A stretch of DNA of 64,000 nucleotides. Origin: Jatrophihabitans endophyticus (GTDB taxonomy: Bacteria; Actinomycetota; Actinomycetes; Mycobacteriales; Jatrophihabitantaceae). Under the pieces are notes generated by a model. That model worked only from the letters and a program-made list of their open reading frames with translations, was not told the origin of the DNA and made no database searches. This document shows positions 11,182 through 55,414 of this stretch, piece by piece; positions within the stretch are counted from its first letter, which is position 1, and the number at the start of each line of letters is the position of its first letter. Location of the stretch: assembly GCF_900129455.1 (NCBI RefSeq), contig NZ_FQVU01000004.1, positions 1 to 64,000 on the forward strand, in the 5' to 3' direction. The position numbers and the translations under genes were made by a program.

Positions 11182-13038
11182 ATGGACGGCATGGACGCAG
11201 CCGGGCTCGCGAGCTTCCTCGGCGGTCACGCACCCTTCGACGACCTCCCGCCGGAGACCCTCGCCGAGGTGGCCGGTGCCGCCCGCATCGCCGCGTACGG
11301 CGACGGCGCAGAGATCGTGGACGCCTTCGAGCATCCGCGCCAGGAGTTGTACGTGGTGCTCGACGGCCACGTGGACCTGTGGAACTCGCGCGACAACGCC
11401 CGTCCCGACGAGCGACTGACCGCGGGCGGCGTCTTCGGCTTCTCCGCCCTGCTCACCCGCCGCTCGGTCGGGCCGCGCGCGGTGGCGGTCGGCGCGACGA
11501 CGGTCGCGGTGCTGCCCTCGTCGGCGGTCGAGCCGGCGTTCTCCTCCAGCGGCGGCGCCCGCTTCCTCGCCGAGAGCATGTCGCGCCGGGCACCGGTGGG
11601 CGACCCGTCCTACGGCGTGGTGGACGAGCTCATCACCCGCGTGCCCATCGTCGTCGGGCCCGACGCGCACGTGGACGACGTCGCCCGGGCCATGACCGAG
11701 CGAGACACCGGCTATGCGGCGGTCGACGTGGGCGACGGCACCTACGGGCTGATCACCGACACCGTGCTGCGCCGCAACCTCATCGTCCCCGGCCTGCCCG
11801 CCGACACCCGCGTCGGCGACGTCATGGCGCACCCGGCCCTGACGACGCAGAGCGGCGACTCGGCCGCGGGTGCGCTGATCATGCTGCTCGACCGGCAGGC
11901 CGACTTCGTGCTCGTCGTCGACCGGGACGGCCGGCTGCGCGGCGCCGCCGCGCCGAGCGACTTCGCGGTGTCGTCCACGACCGCCGGGGTGGCGCTGCGC
12001 CAACAGCTCACCCGCGCGGCGAACACCGACGACCTCGTCGAGCGCGCCCGCCGCGTGCCGGCGATGGTGGCCGACCTGCTCTCCCGTGGCCTGCCCACGA
12101 GCAAGGTGCTGGCGGTCTACAGCGCCACCGTCGACGCGATCGTGCGCCGCGCCCTCGTGCTGAGCTTCGCCGACCACCCGGATCTCGACCTCGACGCCTT
12201 CACCTGGCTGTCGCTGGGCAGCAGCGGCCGGCGCGAGGCCGTCCTCAGCTCCGACCTCGACTCCGCGGTCGCGTTCGCCCGCGACGTCGAGGAGGCGGAG
12301 CGGCAGCGCTACCGCAAGGTCTTCGTCGAGGTCGAGCGGGTGATCGCCGCCGCCGGGCTCGGCATCGACACCCACGGCGCCACCGCGTCCCGGCCGCCCT
12401 TCAGCCGCGACAACGGGGAGTGGCGGCAGGCCGCGCGCGACTGGCTCGCCGATCCGGTCGCCGGCCAGGGCGCGATCATGACGTCGCTGCTCGTCGACGG
12501 CCGCGCGATCCACGGCGACCCGGGACTGCCGGCGGTCACCCGCGTCTTCGCCGACCTGCGCTCGCACCCCGGCACCATGCGGCTGCTGCTGACCGAGTCG
12601 CTCGCGCAGCGCGCCAAGCTGCGCTCGGTGCGTGACGTGCTCGCGCGCCGCGGCGGCACCTTCGACGTCAAGACGCACGCGCTGGTGCCCATCGTCAACA
12701 TCGCCCGATGGGCGGCGCTGAGCGTGGGGTCCTCGGAGCTGCAGACCACCGAGCGGCTCCGCGCGGCGGCGGGGTCGCCGATGCTGCCCGACGACTCCGC
12801 AGACGTGCTCGTCGAGGTGTTCGAGGTGCTGCAGCGCATCCGGCTGCGCCATCAGCTGTCCCAGCGCGAGCGCGACCACCAGCCGTCCGACATCGTGACC
12901 ATGCACCGCCTCTCGCCGATCGACCGCAGCGTCATCGGCCAGGCCGTCCGCGAGATCTCGGCCGTGCAGAAGCGCATGGACAACGTCGCGCAGTACGTTC
13001 CCACCGACGAGTGGTCGGTGGTGGAGCGCCAGCGCTAG
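11182..13038 (+). CDS. Cyclic-nucleotide-binding/CBS/DUF294 nucleotidyltransferase-like signalling protein
   Basis: 618 residues with three parts. An N-terminal cNMP-binding-like beta-roll spans about 15-110 (LYVVLDGHVDLW). A pair of CBS domains spans about 150-262. A DUF294-type nucleotidyltransferase region follows, with GSSGRREAVLSSDLDSAVA at about 347-365, where G-S and D-x-D are the usual metal and nucleotide ligands, and then the DUF294 C-terminal helical domain. Known relatives resemble the GlnD uridylyltransferase head and are thought to be signal-transduction proteins, but their reaction is mostly unproven. Two ATGs nine bases apart (11182, 11191) are both possible starts and no strong ribosome binding site separates them. 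The stop TAG lies within a CTAG shared with the convergent GH92 gene. Confidence 0.85.
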   Translation: MDGMDAAGLASFLGGHAPFDDLPPETLAEVAGAARIAAYGDGAEIVDAFEHPRQELYVVLDGHVDLWNSRDNARPDERLTAGGVFGFSALLTRRSVGPRAVAVGATTVAVLPSSAVEPAFSSSGGARFLAESMSRRAPVGDPSYGVVDELITRVPIVVGPDAHVDDVARAMTERDTGYAAVDVGDGTYGLITDTVLRRNLIVPGLPADTRVGDVMAHPALTTQSGDSAAGALIMLLDRQADFVLVVDRDGRLRGAAAPSDFAVSSTTAGVALRQQLTRAANTDDLVERARRVPAMVADLLSRGLPTSKVLAVYSATVDAIVRRALVLSFADHPDLDLDAFTWLSLGSSGRREAVLSSDLDSAVAFARDVEEAERQRYRKVFVEVERVIAAAGLGIDTHGATASRPPFSRDNGEWRQAARDWLADPVAGQGAIMTSLLVDGRAIHGDPGLPAVTRVFADLRSHPGTMRLLLTESLAQRAKLRSVRDVLARRGGTFDVKTHALVPIVNIARWAALSVGSSELQTTERLRAAAGSPMLPDDSADVLVEVFEVLQRIRLRHQLSQRERDHQPSDIVTMHRLSPIDRSVIGQAVREISAVQKRMDNVAQYVPTDEWSVVERQR

Positions 13039-16000
13039 TTGCCGGCGTTGCCGGCCAGCGTGACGGCGTAGATCTCGCCGGTGCCGCCGCCGGGCAGCGT
13101 CAGCGACTGCAGCTGCTTGCCCTCGTCGAGGGGGATGCCCACCGCGAAGAGATTGACCGGCGGCCCGTCGACGCCCTGGCCGGTCTTGATGCGGTGCGCC
13201 ATCGCGACGGCCACGCTGTTGCCCGTCGCCGGTGAGGACGACGCCCAGTCGCTCAACGCGAAGGGGATCTCCTCGCTCGTGCCGTCGGTGTACGTCGCGG
13301 TCACCGTCGAGCTGAGCGCGCCGCCGTGCGCCGCGCCGAGCACGCGGGCCGTCGCGTAGGCACCGGCCGGGACGGCGAGCTGCTGGCGGCGAGCCGTGAC
13401 GAAGTTCTTGGCCGTGCCGGTCGGGTCGGGCAGCAGCCAGGACGTCCCCGCCGCGGTGTGTCGACCGGCCGCCGGCAGCAGCGCCGCGTCGTAACTCCAC
13501 CCGCCGCCGTCGAAGTTGCCGGAGTCCGGCGCGTCGGTGGTGGCGGTGCCGTCGAGATCGGCCACGGCACCGAGGTCGAGCGCGCAGTCGGCGCCGTCGG
13601 CGCAGGTGACGTCCTGCAGTTCCACCGTGACCGTCTTGGTGACGGTGCGGACGCCGTACGCGCGCATCGTCACCGTGACCGGGTAGCTGCCCGCGGCCGT
13701 CCCCTTCGGGACGTCGAGCGTGATCGTGCGGTCGAGCGCCGTCGGCAGTCCGTCCGAGGTGAGGAACTTCGTGGAGTGGGCCGGGTTCGCGCGCCACCCT
13801 GCCGGCGGCGTGACGGCGGTCGTCACGATCTTCGCCCCGGGCCACTGGCCGACCGTCGACGCGGTGACGGCGACCGTCCGCGCACCCGTGGCCGCCGCTG
13901 CGCCCATGGCGGTCCCCGCGAACGTGACCCGCTCGTCGTCGGCCGTCGGGTCGAGTGACGGCGGGGCATCCGCGGTCCGCGTGCCCCAGCGGCCCGGCGT
14001 GGCCGAGACGCGGTAGTCGATCGTGCCGCCGTGCGCGATGCTGCCGAAGCGCAGCCACGTCTTCGACGTCGACGCACCGTCCACCGCGACCGACGAGACG
14101 TAGCGGTCGGTGTCGCTGACGCCGGGGGCGGTGACGCGCAGGGTGCCGCCCTGTCGCGAGCCGTACCTGCCGATCGTGACCGTGGTGGAGGGGAACTGCG
14201 GCGTCGACAGCACGAACGTGCCCGAGCCGCTCATCGTCGGGTAGATGCCGAGCGAGCTCATCACGTACCAGGACGACATCTCGCCGAGGTCGTCGTTGCC
14301 GGTCATGCCGTCCGGGCCGGTGGTGAAGAGCCGGTAGGCGGCTCGGACGACGGTCGCCGCCTTCGCCGGCGCGCCGGCCGAGGTGTAGAAGTACGGCGCG
14401 ATCAGGTCGGGCTCGTTGTTCGGGTTGTAGGTCGACTTCGCGTAGTAGTCGTAGGGCGAGGAGATCCACTCGTCCTCGATCGTGCTGGCCGGGTCGGCGA
14501 GCAGCTTGTCGTAGGCGAAGAACCGGTCGAGCCGCCGCTCGGTCGCCTTGCGGCCGCCGAGCAGGTCGACCAGGCCGGCCGGGTCCTGCGGCACGAGCCA
14601 GGTGTACTGGTAGGCGCCGCTCTCGTGGAACTGCTCGTTGCCGCTCACCGGGTCGAAGGGCGAGAGGAACGAGCCGTCGGCGTTGCGGGGGTGGAACTGC
14701 TGGATCCGCGCATCCCACAGGTTGCGGTACCACCGGCCCCGCTGGGCGAACGTCGTCGCGTCCTTGGCGTGGCCGAGCTTCCTTGCCATGACCGACAGCG
14801 CGGCGTCCGCGGCCGAGTACTCGAGGGTGGCCGACGACGGGTTGTTGCAGTCGCTGTCGCCGCCCTGGTAGACGCAGTCGGTGCGTTGGTCGAGGCCGGA
14901 CGGGATGTAGCCGAGCTTGCGGTAGTACTCGACGCCGGCGCGGCCGTTGTACTGCGAGTCCTTCGGCGGCAGCTGCGTCGCGTACTTGCGCAGCAGCGCG
15001 TAGGCCTCGGCCTCGTGTCCGGCGAGGAAGCCCTTGGACCACAGCTCGACGAGCGTCGGCGTGATCGGGTCACCGGTCATGATGTTGGTCTCGCTGTTCT
15101 CCAGTGCCCACCGCGGCAGCCAGCCGCCCTCGCGGCCGATGGCCAGCAGCGACAGCGCGTCGTCGCGGGCGACGTCGGGGCGCAGCAGCTCGAGCAGCTG
15201 GTTCTGGGTGCGATAGGTGTCCCACAGCGAGAAGTTCGCCCGCGGCGTCCACCCCTTCGCGGCGTGGATCTTGTCGTCGAAGCCGCGGTACTTCCCGTCG
15301 ACGTCGCCGCTGAGGTTCGGGTGCAGCAGTGCGTGGTACAGCGAGGTGTAGTAGGCGACCTGCCGCTCGTGGGTGCCGCCGCTGATGCGGGCGAGGCCGA
15401 GCTGGCGCTCCCACTGCGCGGTGAGCGCGGTGCGGGTGGCGTCGAAGTCGAAGCCGGTGCCGGTCTCGGCCCTCAGGTTCTTGGTGGCGCCGGCGACGCC
15501 GGTGTAGGACAGCCCGACCTTGACCGTGACCTGCTTCGCGTCGCCGCCGAAGGTCACCCAGGCGCCGCGGTTGCCGTCGCCGGACGAGGTCTTCGCCCCC
15601 TTGTCGAGGGCGTCGCCGTGCCAGGTGCCGTAGGAGGCGAAGGGCGTGGAGAACGTGGCGACGAAGTGGACGGTGTGCTGGTCGTGGCCGGCGCAGAAGC
15701 CGCCGTCGGTGACGCTGCCGGTGAGCGTGTGGTCGTCCACCACCTGGATCGAGGACGTCTGCACCGCCATGTTGGCGTGCCCGGTGTTGAGCAGGACGTT
15801 GTGCTGGCCGTCGGCGGGGAAGGTGTAGCGCTGCCAGCCGGTGCGTTCGGTGGCGGTCAGCTCGGCGTCGATGTCGTACCGCGACAGCCCGACGCGGTAG
15901 TAACCGGGCGTCGCCTGCTCGTCGTCGTGCGAGAACGCCGACGAGTACTGGTCGTAGTCGCCGGTCGTGACGGCACCGGTCGTCGGCATGATCGGCAGCT

Positions 16001-16301
16001 CGCCGACGACGCCGCAGCCGACGCCCGACAGGTGCGTCTGGCTGAAACCGTGGATCTTGCTGCCCTTGTAGTCGTAACCGCCCTGGCCGCCGGTGTCGGG
16101 GCTGACCTGCACCATCCCGAACGGCGCGCTCGCCCCCGGGAAGGTGTTGCCGAAGTTCTCGGTGCCGATGTAGGGGTTGACCAGACCGGTGAGCGGACCG
16201 CCGGCCGGCGCGGCGATCGCGCCCGGCGCGGTGGCGGCGAGGACGCCGCCGAGCGTGACGGCGGCGACCGCGGCACCGACGACGCGGCGAACTGTGGACA
16301 T
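13035..16301 (-). CDS. Secreted GH92 alpha-mannosidase (1)
   Basis: 1088 residues. A Sec signal peptide (MSTVRRVVGAAVAAVTLGGV, Ala-rich cleavage near 30) is followed by the GH92 N-terminal motif NPYIGTENFGNTFPGASAPF (about 42) and catalytic-domain blocks SLWDTYRTQNQLLELL (about 356) and MTGNDDLGEMSSWYVMSSLG (about 664). Known GH92 enzymes are Ca2+-dependent inverting exo-alpha-mannosidases acting on alpha-1,2/1,3/1,4 or mannose-phosphate linkages. After the catalytic unit come a NEW3-like domain (about 790-900) and a C-terminal sandwich beginning FDGGGWSY (about 926) that also occurs in the second GH92 protein. The CTGGAGG ribosome binding site lies upstream of ATG 16301. It probably forms an operon behind the LacI-type gene. 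Confidence 0.92.
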   Translation of the reverse strand: MSTVRRVVGAAVAAVTLGGVLAATAPGAIAAPAGGPLTGLVNPYIGTENFGNTFPGASAPFGMVQVSPDTGGQGGYDYKGSKIHGFSQTHLSGVGCGVVGELPIMPTTGAVTTGDYDQYSSAFSHDDEQATPGYYRVGLSRYDIDAELTATERTGWQRYTFPADGQHNVLLNTGHANMAVQTSSIQVVDDHTLTGSVTDGGFCAGHDQHTVHFVATFSTPFASYGTWHGDALDKGAKTSSGDGNRGAWVTFGGDAKQVTVKVGLSYTGVAGATKNLRAETGTGFDFDATRTALTAQWERQLGLARISGGTHERQVAYYTSLYHALLHPNLSGDVDGKYRGFDDKIHAAKGWTPRANFSLWDTYRTQNQLLELLRPDVARDDALSLLAIGREGGWLPRWALENSETNIMTGDPITPTLVELWSKGFLAGHEAEAYALLRKYATQLPPKDSQYNGRAGVEYYRKLGYIPSGLDQRTDCVYQGGDSDCNNPSSATLEYSAADAALSVMARKLGHAKDATTFAQRGRWYRNLWDARIQQFHPRNADGSFLSPFDPVSGNEQFHESGAYQYTWLVPQDPAGLVDLLGGRKATERRLDRFFAYDKLLADPASTIEDEWISSPYDYYAKSTYNPNNEPDLIAPYFYTSAGAPAKAATVVRAAYRLFTTGPDGMTGNDDLGEMSSWYVMSSLGIYPTMSGSGTFVLSTPQFPSTTVTIGRYGSRQGGTLRVTAPGVSDTDRYVSSVAVDGASTSKTWLRFGSIAHGGTIDYRVSATPGRWGTRTADAPPSLDPTADDERVTFAGTAMGAAAATGARTVAVTASTVGQWPGAKIVTTAVTPPAGWRANPAHSTKFLTSDGLPTALDRTITLDVPKGTAAGSYPVTVTMRAYGVRTVTKTVTVELQDVTCADGADCALDLGAVADLDGTATTDAPDSGNFDGGGWSYDAALLPAAGRHTAAGTSWLLPDPTGTAKNFVTARRQQLAVPAGAYATARVLGAAHGGALSSTVTATYTDGTSEEIPFALSDWASSSPATGNSVAVAMAHRIKTGQGVDGPPVNLFAVGIPLDEGKQLQSLTLPGGGTGEIYAVTLAGNAGN

Positions 16302-16322: not shown

Positions 16323-16364
16323 TTTTGGCGGCCTGACGCAGCATGCTGCGTCAGGCCGCCAAAA
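16323..16364. repeat. Palindromic intergenic element, copy 1
   Basis: A perfect 42-bp palindrome with no loop bases, centred on GCAGCATGCTGC. The 21-bp arms start TTTTGGCGGCCTGACG. On the minus strand it follows the stop of the LacI-type gene by 6 nt and precedes the GH92 gene. A related palindrome with the same core, the same TTTTGGCGGC outer end and the same CCCACT flank occurs at 53876-53919, but with different middle arm bases that still pair. No T-run follows the hairpin, so a simple intrinsic terminator is not supported. Confidence 0.85.
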
Positions 16365-16370
16365 GTGGGC

Positions 16371-17393
16371 TTAGGGGGGTGGGGGACGCTCGCCCGAACC
16401 TCGGGGGACGAGCCGGACGGGCAGTCGTTCGTCGCGCGGGGCGCCGGGCGTGCCGTGCAGGTGGTCGAGCAGGCGAGCGGCGCCGGACTCGCCCATTTGC
16501 TCGGGGGAGTGGCTGACGACGGTGACCCCGAGCAGGTCGGCGAGCTCGAAGTCGTCGAAACCGACGAGCGCGGGTTTTTGCGCGGTGTCGCGCAAAGCGC
16601 GCAGCGTGCCGACGGTGATCCGGTTGTTGGTCGTGAACAGCGCGGTCGGCGGCTCGGGCAGGGCCAGCAGGTCGGCGGCGGCACGACCGGCGGACTCGCT
16701 GTCGTGTGAGTCGGCGCGCATGTACCGCTGCCAGTCGGCGATGCCGGCCTCGTGCATCGCGGCCTCGAACCCGGCGACGCGTTCCCGGTGGGTCGGCAGC
16801 CGGCTCAGGTCGCCGACGAGCCCGATGCGACGGTGCCCCTGCGCGAGCAGGTGTCGGGTGGCCAGGGCGGCACCGCCGGCGTTGTCGAGTGCGACCGTGT
16901 CGGCGGTGATGCCGTGTGGCGGGCGGTCCAGGAACGCGACGGGGACGCCGTGGCGGCGCTCGGCCTCGAGGTGGGCGTGATCGGTGAGGCACGTGGTCAG
17001 CAGCAGGCCGCAGACGCGGCGCTCGAGCATCTCGACGGTGAGCTGACGTTCCAGGTCGGCGTCCTCGTCGGTGGAGGCGGTGACGAGCTGCAGACCCTCG
17101 CGGCGCAGCCGACGCTCCACGCCGCGCGCGACCCGGGCGTAGAAGGGGTTGGCGACGTCGGCGATGAGCAGGCCGACCGACGTCGAGCGGGCACCGCGGC
17201 GCAGCTCGCGGGCGATCACGTTGGGCCGGAAGCCCAGTTCGTCGGCCGCGGCGTGGACCTTCGCCGCGGTCCGCTCGGTCACGTGCGGCTCGCCGTTGAA
17301 GACGCGCGACGCCGTCTTCAGGCTCACCCCGGCCAGGCGCGCGACCTCGTCCATCGTGGGACGGGAGCGCGCCGAAGTGGTCACGCCGGGCAT
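16371..17393 (-). CDS. LacI-family transcriptional regulator
   Basis: 340 residues. The LacI helix-turn-helix and hinge region is clear: MDEVARLAGVSLKTASRVFN (about 14-33), then VTERTAAKVHAAADELGFRPN. A periplasmic-binding-like effector domain follows, with SVGLLIADVANPFYARVARG and the C-terminal VGFDDFELADLLGVTVVSHS. It lies between two GH92 alpha-mannosidases, so the effector is probably mannose or a mannooligosaccharide (inference). A CG-centred operator sits immediately upstream (17406-17421). Start ATG 17393 is the first methionine; GTG 17378 and an in-frame TTG 17402 are alternatives. The gene is followed by palindromic element copy 1 and then GH92 (1). Confidence 0.92.
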   Translation of the reverse strand: MPGVTTSARSRPTMDEVARLAGVSLKTASRVFNGEPHVTERTAAKVHAAADELGFRPNVIARELRRGARSTSVGLLIADVANPFYARVARGVERRLRREGLQLVTASTDEDADLERQLTVEMLERRVCGLLLTTCLTDHAHLEAERRHGVPVAFLDRPPHGITADTVALDNAGGAALATRHLLAQGHRRIGLVGDLSRLPTHRERVAGFEAAMHEAGIADWQRYMRADSHDSESAGRAAADLLALPEPPTALFTTNNRITVGTLRALRDTAQKPALVGFDDFELADLLGVTVVSHSPEQMGESGAARLLDHLHGTPGAPRDERLPVRLVPRGSGERPPPP

Positions 17394-17405
17394 CCTGCCC
17401 AAACC

Positions 17406-23150: not shown

Positions 23151-23202
23151 TGATCAAGAGGGCGTCGTGGTGGCCAGGGCGACCACGACGCCCTCTTGAT
23201 CA
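23151..23202. terminator. Bidirectional terminator-like hairpin
   Basis: A perfect 21-bp inverted repeat, arms 23151-23171 and 23182-23202 (outer end TGATCAAGAGGGCG), with a 10-nt loop. It fills the 67-bp gap between the convergent GH92 (2) and PPOX genes. No T-run flanks it. Its length and perfect match suggest a strong hairpin that stops transcription from both sides, or a dispersed repeat copy. Confidence 0.7.
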
Positions 23203-52491: not shown

Positions 52492-53856
52492 TCAGTTCCC
52501 CTCGTAGTAGCGGTCGGCGACGTCGAGCGCCTCGTCCAGGATGCCGAGACCCTCTCGCACTTCTGTTTCGGTGATGATGCACGGCGGTACGACGTGCGTG
52601 CGGTTGAAGTGGGTCATGGGCCACAGCCCCCGTTCCTTGCACGCGGCCGCCAGCTCGTTCATCGGCTTCGCGTCGGCGCCGCTCGCGTTGTAGGGGACGA
52701 GCGGCGCGTGGGTGGCGGCGTCGCGGACGAGCTCGACGGCCCAGAACACCCCCAGCCCACGCACCTCGCCGACCGACGGGTGGCGCTCGGCGATCTTCGC
52801 GAGCTCCGGGCCGATGACCTCGGTGCCGAGCCGGCGGGCGTTCTCGACGATGCCCTCGTCCTTGAAGATGGTGATCGAGGCGACCGCGCTCGCGCAGGCC
52901 AGCGGGTGACCGGAGTAGGTGAGGCCGCCCGGGAAGATCCGTTCGTCGAAGGTGCGCGCGATGCGCTCGCTGATGACGACGCCGCCGAGCGGGACGTACC
53001 CGGAGTTGACGCCCTTGGCGAACGCGATGAGGTCCGGCGTCACGTCCCAGTGGTCGACGGCGAACCACTCGCCGCAGCGGCCGAAGCCGGCCATGACCTC
53101 GTCGGCGATGTAGACGATGCCGAACTCGTCGCAGATCTGCCGCACGCCCGCGAGGTAGCCGTCCGGCGGGACGAGGATGCCGTTCGTCCCCACGACGGTC
53201 TCGAGGATGATCGCGGCGACGGTGTGCGCGCCCTCGACCATGAGCGTGTCGCGCAGGTGCTGCAGCGCGCGCTCGCACTCCTGCTCCGGCGTCTCGCTGT
53301 GGAAGGCCGAGCGGTAGGGGTACGGCCCCCAGAAGTGGACGATGCCCGGCATCGCCGGCTCGGCGCCCCAGCGGCGCGGGTCGCCGGTGGCGGTGATCGC
53401 GCCGGCGGTGGCGCCGTGATAGCTGCGGTAGGCCGCGAGCACCTTCTGCCGCCCGGTGTGCAGCTTCGCCATGCGCATGGCGTTCTCGACCGCCTCGGCG
53501 CCGCCGTTGGTGAAGAACACCCGATTCAGGTCGCCGGGGGCGAGCTCGGCGATTAGCCGGGCGGCCTCGCTGCGGGCGTCGTTGGCGAACGTCGGGGCGA
53601 TCGTCGTCAGCCGCCCCACGTAGTCCTGGATCGCCGCCACCAGCTTGGGGTGGTTGTAGCCGATGTTGGCGTTGATCAGCTGGCTGGAGAAGTCCAGGTA
53701 GCGCGTGCCGTCGTAGTCGGTGAAGTGGCTGCCCTCGGCGCTCGCGATGGGCAGCGGGTCGATCAGCTTCTGCGCCGACCACGAGTGGAAGACGTGCGCG
53801 CGGTCGAGCTCGCGGATGCGCGCGTCGGTGTCGGGCAGGCCGTCCAGCGGGTTCAT
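52492..53856 (-). CDS. Class III omega-aminotransferase (beta-alanine/beta-aminoisobutyrate type)
   Basis: 454 residues. PLP motifs: FTNGGAEAVENAMRMAKLHT (about 110), YIADEVMAGFGRCGEWF (Asp, about 250) and DLIAFAKGVNSGYVPLGGVV (Schiff-base Lys, about 282). It transfers the amino group of beta-alanine or beta-aminoisobutyrate to pyruvate, giving malonate or methylmalonate semialdehyde, which fits the next enzyme. ATG 53856 is preceded by AGGAGAGG, which rules out the earlier in-frame codon inside palindromic element copy 2. Confidence 0.9.
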   Translation of the reverse strand: MNPLDGLPDTDARIRELDRAHVFHSWSAQKLIDPLPIASAEGSHFTDYDGTRYLDFSSQLINANIGYNHPKLVAAIQDYVGRLTTIAPTFANDARSEAARLIAELAPGDLNRVFFTNGGAEAVENAMRMAKLHTGRQKVLAAYRSYHGATAGAITATGDPRRWGAEPAMPGIVHFWGPYPYRSAFHSETPEQECERALQHLRDTLMVEGAHTVAAIILETVVGTNGILVPPDGYLAGVRQICDEFGIVYIADEVMAGFGRCGEWFAVDHWDVTPDLIAFAKGVNSGYVPLGGVVISERIARTFDERIFPGGLTYSGHPLACASAVASITIFKDEGIVENARRLGTEVIGPELAKIAERHPSVGEVRGLGVFWAVELVRDAATHAPLVPYNASGADAKPMNELAAACKERGLWPMTHFNRTHVVPPCIITETEVREGLGILDEALDVADRYYEGN

Positions 53857-53875: not shown

Positions 53876-53919
53876 CTTTTGGCGGCTGAGCGCAGCATGC
53901 TGCGCTCAGCCGCCAAGAG
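53876..53919. repeat. Palindromic intergenic element, copy 2
   Basis: A 44-bp palindrome with 22-bp arms and a single T/G mismatch pair, centred on GCAGCATGCTGC. The arm start CTTTTGGCGGCTGAGCG differs from copy 1 in the middle, but both arms changed together. On the minus strand it begins 7 nt after the dehydrogenase stop and ends just before the aminotransferase ribosome binding site. Confidence 0.85.
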
Positions 53920-53926
53920 TGGGGGG

Positions 53927-55414
<1,488 letters not shown>

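Follow-up and report, generated by a model that had tools for sequence, protein, structure and literature searches.

Dispersed gene-end palindromes with conserved ends and genome-specific arms in Jatrophihabitans endophyticus and related genera

The genome of Jatrophihabitans endophyticus (G000; 4.48 Mb in 10 contigs) harbours a family of 30 palindromes, all located at gene 3' ends, and other genera of the same family carry dispersed palindromes with similar ends and different arms. Since the positions appear to be inherited while the arm sequence is genome-specific, the sequence comparison indicates that a dispersed palindrome at fixed sites undergoes concerted evolution. The species-specific middles suggest a process by which these palindromes are copied or rewritten genome-wide.

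The palindrome family of J. endophyticus

The family was detected through two copies in the window, i.e. the whole stretch of 64,000 nucleotides that was analysed (Table 1). Copy 1 (TTTTGGCGGCCTGACGCAGCATGCTGCGTCAGGCCGCCAAAA) is, as initially annotated, a loop-free perfect palindrome of 42 bp whose arms match throughout; it is real and far beyond chance, the expectation for a perfect 21-bp arm at the local base composition being about 7e-7 per 64 kb. The second copy described at a distance of 37.5 kb is present and shares with copy 1 the core GCAGCATGCTGC, the outer TTTTGGCGGC and the minus-strand flank CCCACT, but it is near-perfect only, with one altered base at the end (right end CCAAGA). 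The middle of the arm differs between the two (CTGACGC vs TGAGCGC) and is paired within each copy, also in line with the initial annotation. On neither strand of either copy is the stem followed by a T-run, each strand reading TTTT before and AAAA after it, and the earlier remark that this is not a plain terminator therefore holds. No match above the gathering score of Rfam 15 was found in the 64-kb window.

Table 1. Palindrome copies and adjoining genes in the window
Feature	Position	Strand	Description
Copy 1, perfect 42-bp palindrome	16323..16364	.	TTTTGGCGGC-CTGA-CGC-AGCATGCT-GCG-TCAG-GCCGCCAAAA; 71.9 bits (covariance model R1)
Copy 2, same family	53877..53918	.	TTTTGGCGGC-TGAG-CGC-AGCATGCT-GCG-CTCA-GCCGCCAAGA
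LacI-family regulator gene	16371..17402	-	Pfam LacI/Peripla_BP; stop codon 6 nt from copy 1
Glycoside hydrolase family 92 gene	13035..16301	-	Pfam Glyco_hydro_92; downstream of copy 1, start 21 nt away
Aldehyde dehydrogenase gene (mmsA-like)	53927..55414	-	Pfam Aldedh; stop codon 8 nt from copy 2
Class-III aminotransferase gene	52492..53856	-	Pfam Aminotran_3; downstream of copy 2, start 20 nt away

In G000, TTTTGGCGGC-N-GCCGCCAAAA is matched exactly 24 times, always at a single length, although spacers of 10–34 bases were permitted. With up to three mismatches allowed, 30 credible copies were found, while a 31st match looks like chance. The genome-wide count with a covariance model, proposed in the initial annotation, recovers exactly the same 30 copies (60 strand hits, 58.8–81.6 bits) and nothing weaker. 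The 30 copies are therefore a discrete family. No solo half-sites were found in G000, the decamer TTTTGGCGGC always lying within a palindrome. When scanned with exact patterns of the window-type arm, the GTDB contig collection and IMG/VR gave no match outside G000, and the literature covered, which was partial, held nothing relevant on the sequence itself or on such palindromes in actinobacteria. G000 also carries another repeated inverted repeat, CCGACTGGCGACCTGTAGGTCGCCAGTCGG, at L230:12666-12731 and L236:14125-14154.

The consensus of the aligned copies reads CC(G/A)C-TTTT-GGCGGC-NNNN-CGC-AGCATGCT-GCG-NNNN-GCCGCC-AAAA-GCGG. The ends TTTTGGCGG/CCGCCAAAA and the inner CGC/GCG hardly vary among the 30 copies. 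The four stem pairs between the ends and the inner CGC do vary, with ten left-arm versions that are mostly still paired; TGAG is the arm of 15 of the 30 copies, and one copy (C3:882907) is chimeric, i.e. it combines two arm types. The centre is AT in all copies and not palindromic in every one (e.g. TTAATACT). Nine pairs show double changes, and the covariation amounts to 38 double-changed cells; shuffling gave 10.0 +/- 2.5, and sliding the partner no more than 6. This agrees with the initial view of a dispersed extragenic palindrome family whose hairpin shape is kept as the arms change.

As to position, which the initial annotation had suggested relating to stop codons, genes were called with a simple codon-usage caller and not taken from a curated annotation. 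Of the 30 copies, 28 begin 4–18 nt past a stop codon and two overlap the stop. The only apparent exception, at L019, lies behind a 193-aa hexapeptide-transferase gene overlooked by the caller, and therefore all 30 copies stand at gene 3' ends. Thirteen are located between convergent genes and 16 after the first of two tandem genes, where they are closer to the preceding stop codon than to the next start in nearly all cases. At least 27 copies lie within 20 nt of a stop codon, where 12 % of random intergenic points would fall (P~6e-22).

Relatives, shared sites and arm turnover

To find relatives, the short-end pattern TTTTGGC-N-GCCAAAA was run against 249 genomes of the order. Dispersed families were found in other genera of the same family, with 23 copies in G010, 19 in G015 and nine in G021, and together with the 30 copies in G000 this sets aside the idea of an isolated pair without counterparts in relatives, considered at the outset. 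The elements of these three genomes are 42–43 bp long, generally adjoin stop codons and mostly have (C/G)GC outside and AT or TA at the centre. Kept across them are the ends (C/G)GC-TTTTGGC...GCCAAAA-GC(G/C), whereas the arms are species-specific, i.e. mostly A-NNNNN-GCACG in G010, ACACCTGCAGGG or ACAGCGACCGGG in G015 and GTGGAGTCCG in G021; chimeric copies with two arm types also occur among them. Because non-carriers are placed between carrier genomes in the DnaA tree, either the family is old and was lost many times, or it was gained repeatedly. The two other genomes of the genus of G000 gave no match to the TTTTGGC pattern, which is weak evidence, both being drafts of 76–79 % completeness.

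Nocardia also gave TTTTGGC...GCCAAAA hits, but these are part of longer CGTCATCCCGGC... repeats and were treated as a different family. Nocardia genomes (L072–L185, G213) hold many copies of a REP-like doublet, CGTCATCCCGGC(A/G)(T/C)GCTTTTGGCCGGGATCCAC...GTGGATTCCGGCCAAAAGC(A/G)(T/C)GCCGGAATGACG, which from its sequence looks like a CGTC-tagged repeat, separate from the TTTTGGC family.

Orthology of sites was judged by comparing flanking genes in samples taken around the elements. Twelve of the 19 G015 elements stand at gene ends orthologous in G010, and four of the 30 G000 elements at ends orthologous in both, i.e. copy 2 of the window (W53), the element at L041 and two at L022, where the two flank one gene and orthology rests on that gene being only ~51–54 % identical. 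A further candidate, L038 vs L198/L206, was not counted since the BLAST matches were not adjacent to the elements in like manner. At the site of copy 2, the order of the aminotransferase gene and the mmsA-like gene (so named for its presumed likeness to methylmalonate-semialdehyde dehydrogenase) is the same in eight genomes of the family. The palindrome is also present at this gene end in G010 and G015, whereas G011, G003 and G006 have no element or hairpin and only roughly 7–20 nt from stop to next start.

Inheritance of position is not matched by inheritance of sequence. Within genomes, arm identity is 0.81 (G000), 0.58 (G010), 0.80 (G015) and 0.90 (G021), while between G010 and G015 it is 0.47 for orthologues and likewise 0.47 for all pairs (permutation p=0.46). 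The initial annotation had ascribed conserved ends with compensatory change to selection on the inverted-repeat shape; the shape is indeed kept, but this account is too simple, as the arms change in concert genome-wide. Every copy of a genome takes part in this change, and therefore an exchange among copies, by copying or conversion, is probably involved besides site-by-site compensation.

Single loci, one case of each kind and read by eye, give glimpses of gain and loss. L193 (present) and L361 (absent) differ by a simple net insertion of 47 bp in G010 relative to G015, and no target-site duplication is evident at this one clear insertion/empty pair. The comparison of L199 with L287 shows a decayed element of the same length with conserved flanks, and that of L212 with L277 a G010 remnant without ends that has retained a G015-type core, as if the ends were required for arm rewriting.

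All 42 TTTTGGC elements of G010 and G015 are located within 1.28 Mb of dnaA, the half-genomes being 2.1 and 2.4 Mb, and the terminus-side 40–47 % of these chromosomes holds none. This clustering is in part the common ancestry of the sites. The origin-distance test, as well as the reading of remnants as relics, was conceived after seeing the data.

Positions 23151–23202 of the window hold a long gene-end palindrome of a second type, TGATCAAGAGGGCG...CGCCCTCTTGATCA. Matches to TGATCAA...TTGATCA occur in 21 of the 41 genomes searched, including 101 in G037, 54 in G021, 42 in G008 and two in G000. Most are palindromes of ~50–52 bp whose arms are genome-specific. They are often located close to the 3' end of a gene, and the terminal TGA doubles as the stop codon in several of them.

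Candidate mechanism and alternatives

We give about an even chance to the reading that the family is a REP/REPIN-like dispersed palindromic element, standing outside the RAYT-linked REPs, whose ends are read in trans by a putative enzyme. Elements of about 42–48 bp, bounded by (C/G)GC-TTTTGGC and placed right after stop codons, would be recognized at their conserved ends by a trans-acting activity (a nuclease, recombinase or transposase), which could copy one element over another or insert new elements behind stop codons. As the arms need only pair, any new arm variant could therefore come to occupy all members of the set. The host would probably carry it as a strong bidirectional hairpin at the transcript 3' end, where it would be tolerated or would serve as a 3' barrier and insulator, in analogy to the REPs of Escherichia coli, which are located at gene ends and between the genes of operons. 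Speaking for this reading are the 30 discrete copies without solo half-sites, their placement at gene 3' ends, the covariation, the related families, the shared sites, the higher arm identity within genomes than between orthologues, the chimeras, the presence/absence sites and the tight, hairpin-free operon of G003, G006 and G011 at the site of copy 2. On the other side, no mobilizing gene was identified, no target-site duplication was evident at the one clear insertion/empty pair, the copy number is low (9–30) compared with REPs in the literature, and positional conservation across genera exceeds what is expected of an active mobile element. The link to a RAYT-type transposase suggested in the initial annotation was not borne out: Y1_Tnp (PF01797) was found neither in G000 nor in the 24 family genomes searched, some of them incomplete drafts, while control genomes were positive. 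Neither is a GTAG tag common to the 30 copies, the bases beside TTTT/AAAA being mostly CCGC, CCAC or CCGG, nor do the aligned G000 copies contain a CGTC tag or CCA tail. With these tags missing and no such transposase found, the family was not filed as REP.

It is tempting to extend this reading to both gene-end palindromes, i.e. the TTTTGGC and the TGATCAAC types, which may have been fixed at their genes for the lifetime of the genera while a putative non-RAYT, end-reading enzyme rewrites all arms in concert by a homing-like replacement in place. We regard this wider proposal as speculative and rather unlikely.

The family could also represent bidirectional terminators without a U-tract ('I-shaped') or 3'-end stabilizers, kept for their RNA hairpin and homogenized by ordinary recombination or by selection for one efficient sequence, which we consider possible, though rather unlikely. 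The location 4–18 nt past stop codons, with 13 of 30 copies between convergent genes, would fit, as would the retention of the element by gene ends across genera despite turnover of the stem sequence. Moreover, the hairpin predicted for each of the four copies folded is very stable (about -31 to -53 kcal/mol), and because of this strong predicted folding an effect of the palindrome on transcript ends is likely. An ordinary terminator, however, is unlikely: the order on either strand is TTTT-stem-AAAA, opposite to that of an intrinsic terminator, and the operon in which copy 2 lies shows tight coupling and no hairpin in three relatives (G003, G006 and G011). In a 464-kb sample of G000, 69 of 76 convergent pairs were without a long hairpin (near-perfect, score >=13), and therefore the palindrome is not the usual transcript end of this genome. 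Selection on the RNA strand was looked for in the pairing and left no sign, as G-U did not exceed A-C; between convergent genes, however, the element is read in both directions, and an RNA role is therefore still compatible with this result. What a terminator leaves unexplained is the sharing of arms within a genome and their replacement between genomes.

Strict ends, a fixed length of 42–43 bp and genome-specific 'dialects' would also be expected of DNA-level recognition sites (a cruciform or paired half-sites) for a chromosome-organizing or DNA-processing protein, whose drifting specificity drags the arms along as in the uptake-sequence dialects of Neisseriaceae, a precedent for genome-wide sequence shifts (PMC3630211). 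The confinement of every G010 and G015 copy to within 1.28 Mb of dnaA points the same way. With only 9–30 copies, no solo half-sites and a mid-arm that is free to differ among the copies of a genome provided that it pairs, which a sequence-specific dimer site would forbid, this explanation seems improbable. More improbable still is self-templated repair, i.e. template switching of the polymerase at quasi-palindromes of ancient dispersal, which would match the arms without selection or a mobile element. It accounts for arms that remain matched despite sequence turnover in one copy, but neither for the same new arm at unlinked sites nor for chimeric copies with two arm types.

Comparison with known systems

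The spread and persistence of dispersed palindromes in bacteria are best understood for those tied to RAYTs, and the TTTTGGC family behaves REPIN-like without any Y1 transposase found. Fixed positions with species-specific arms allow concerted evolution in bacteria to be tested cleanly in a natural setting. The process is directly testable in G010 and G015, which belong to one genus, are each assembled as a single contig and have 12 sites in common, besides several found in one genome only.

Among known systems, the CGTC-tagged palindromic repeats (PMC3733652) are likewise short dispersed palindromes lacking a dedicated transposase; in contrast to these, the G000-type family has no CGTC tag and no CCA tail, and the CGTC type is listed for five phyla, with Actinobacteria not among them (PMC3733652). 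With the actinobacterial 'I-shaped' terminators without U-tract the family shares a long GC-rich stem behind stop codons, often between convergent genes, but differs by a sequence common to 30 unlinked copies, the conserved TTTT/AAAA inside the stem and the genome-specific arms. Uptake sequences number hundreds or more, unlike the G000-type family, which consists of 42-bp palindromes only, with no solo copies, tens of copies and arms that vary within a genome. Their dialects in Neisseriaceae, which are established genome-wide sequence shifts, resemble it in being a species-specific version of a dispersed short sequence throughout a genome (PMC3630211). REPINs are described as non-autonomous elements that are inherited vertically and depend on RAYT genes present in single copy (PMC8049555). 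From the REPs and REPINs with RAYTs of Enterobacteria and Pseudomonas, the G000-type family is set apart by the missing GTAG tag, by the RAYT/Y1 not found, by its loop-free near-perfect palindrome, by its low copy number and by arms that are free to change while the ends stay. Like them, it consists of extragenic hairpins dispersed over gene ends and the gaps between operon genes, with a conserved terminal motif, genome-specific families and largely vertical inheritance.
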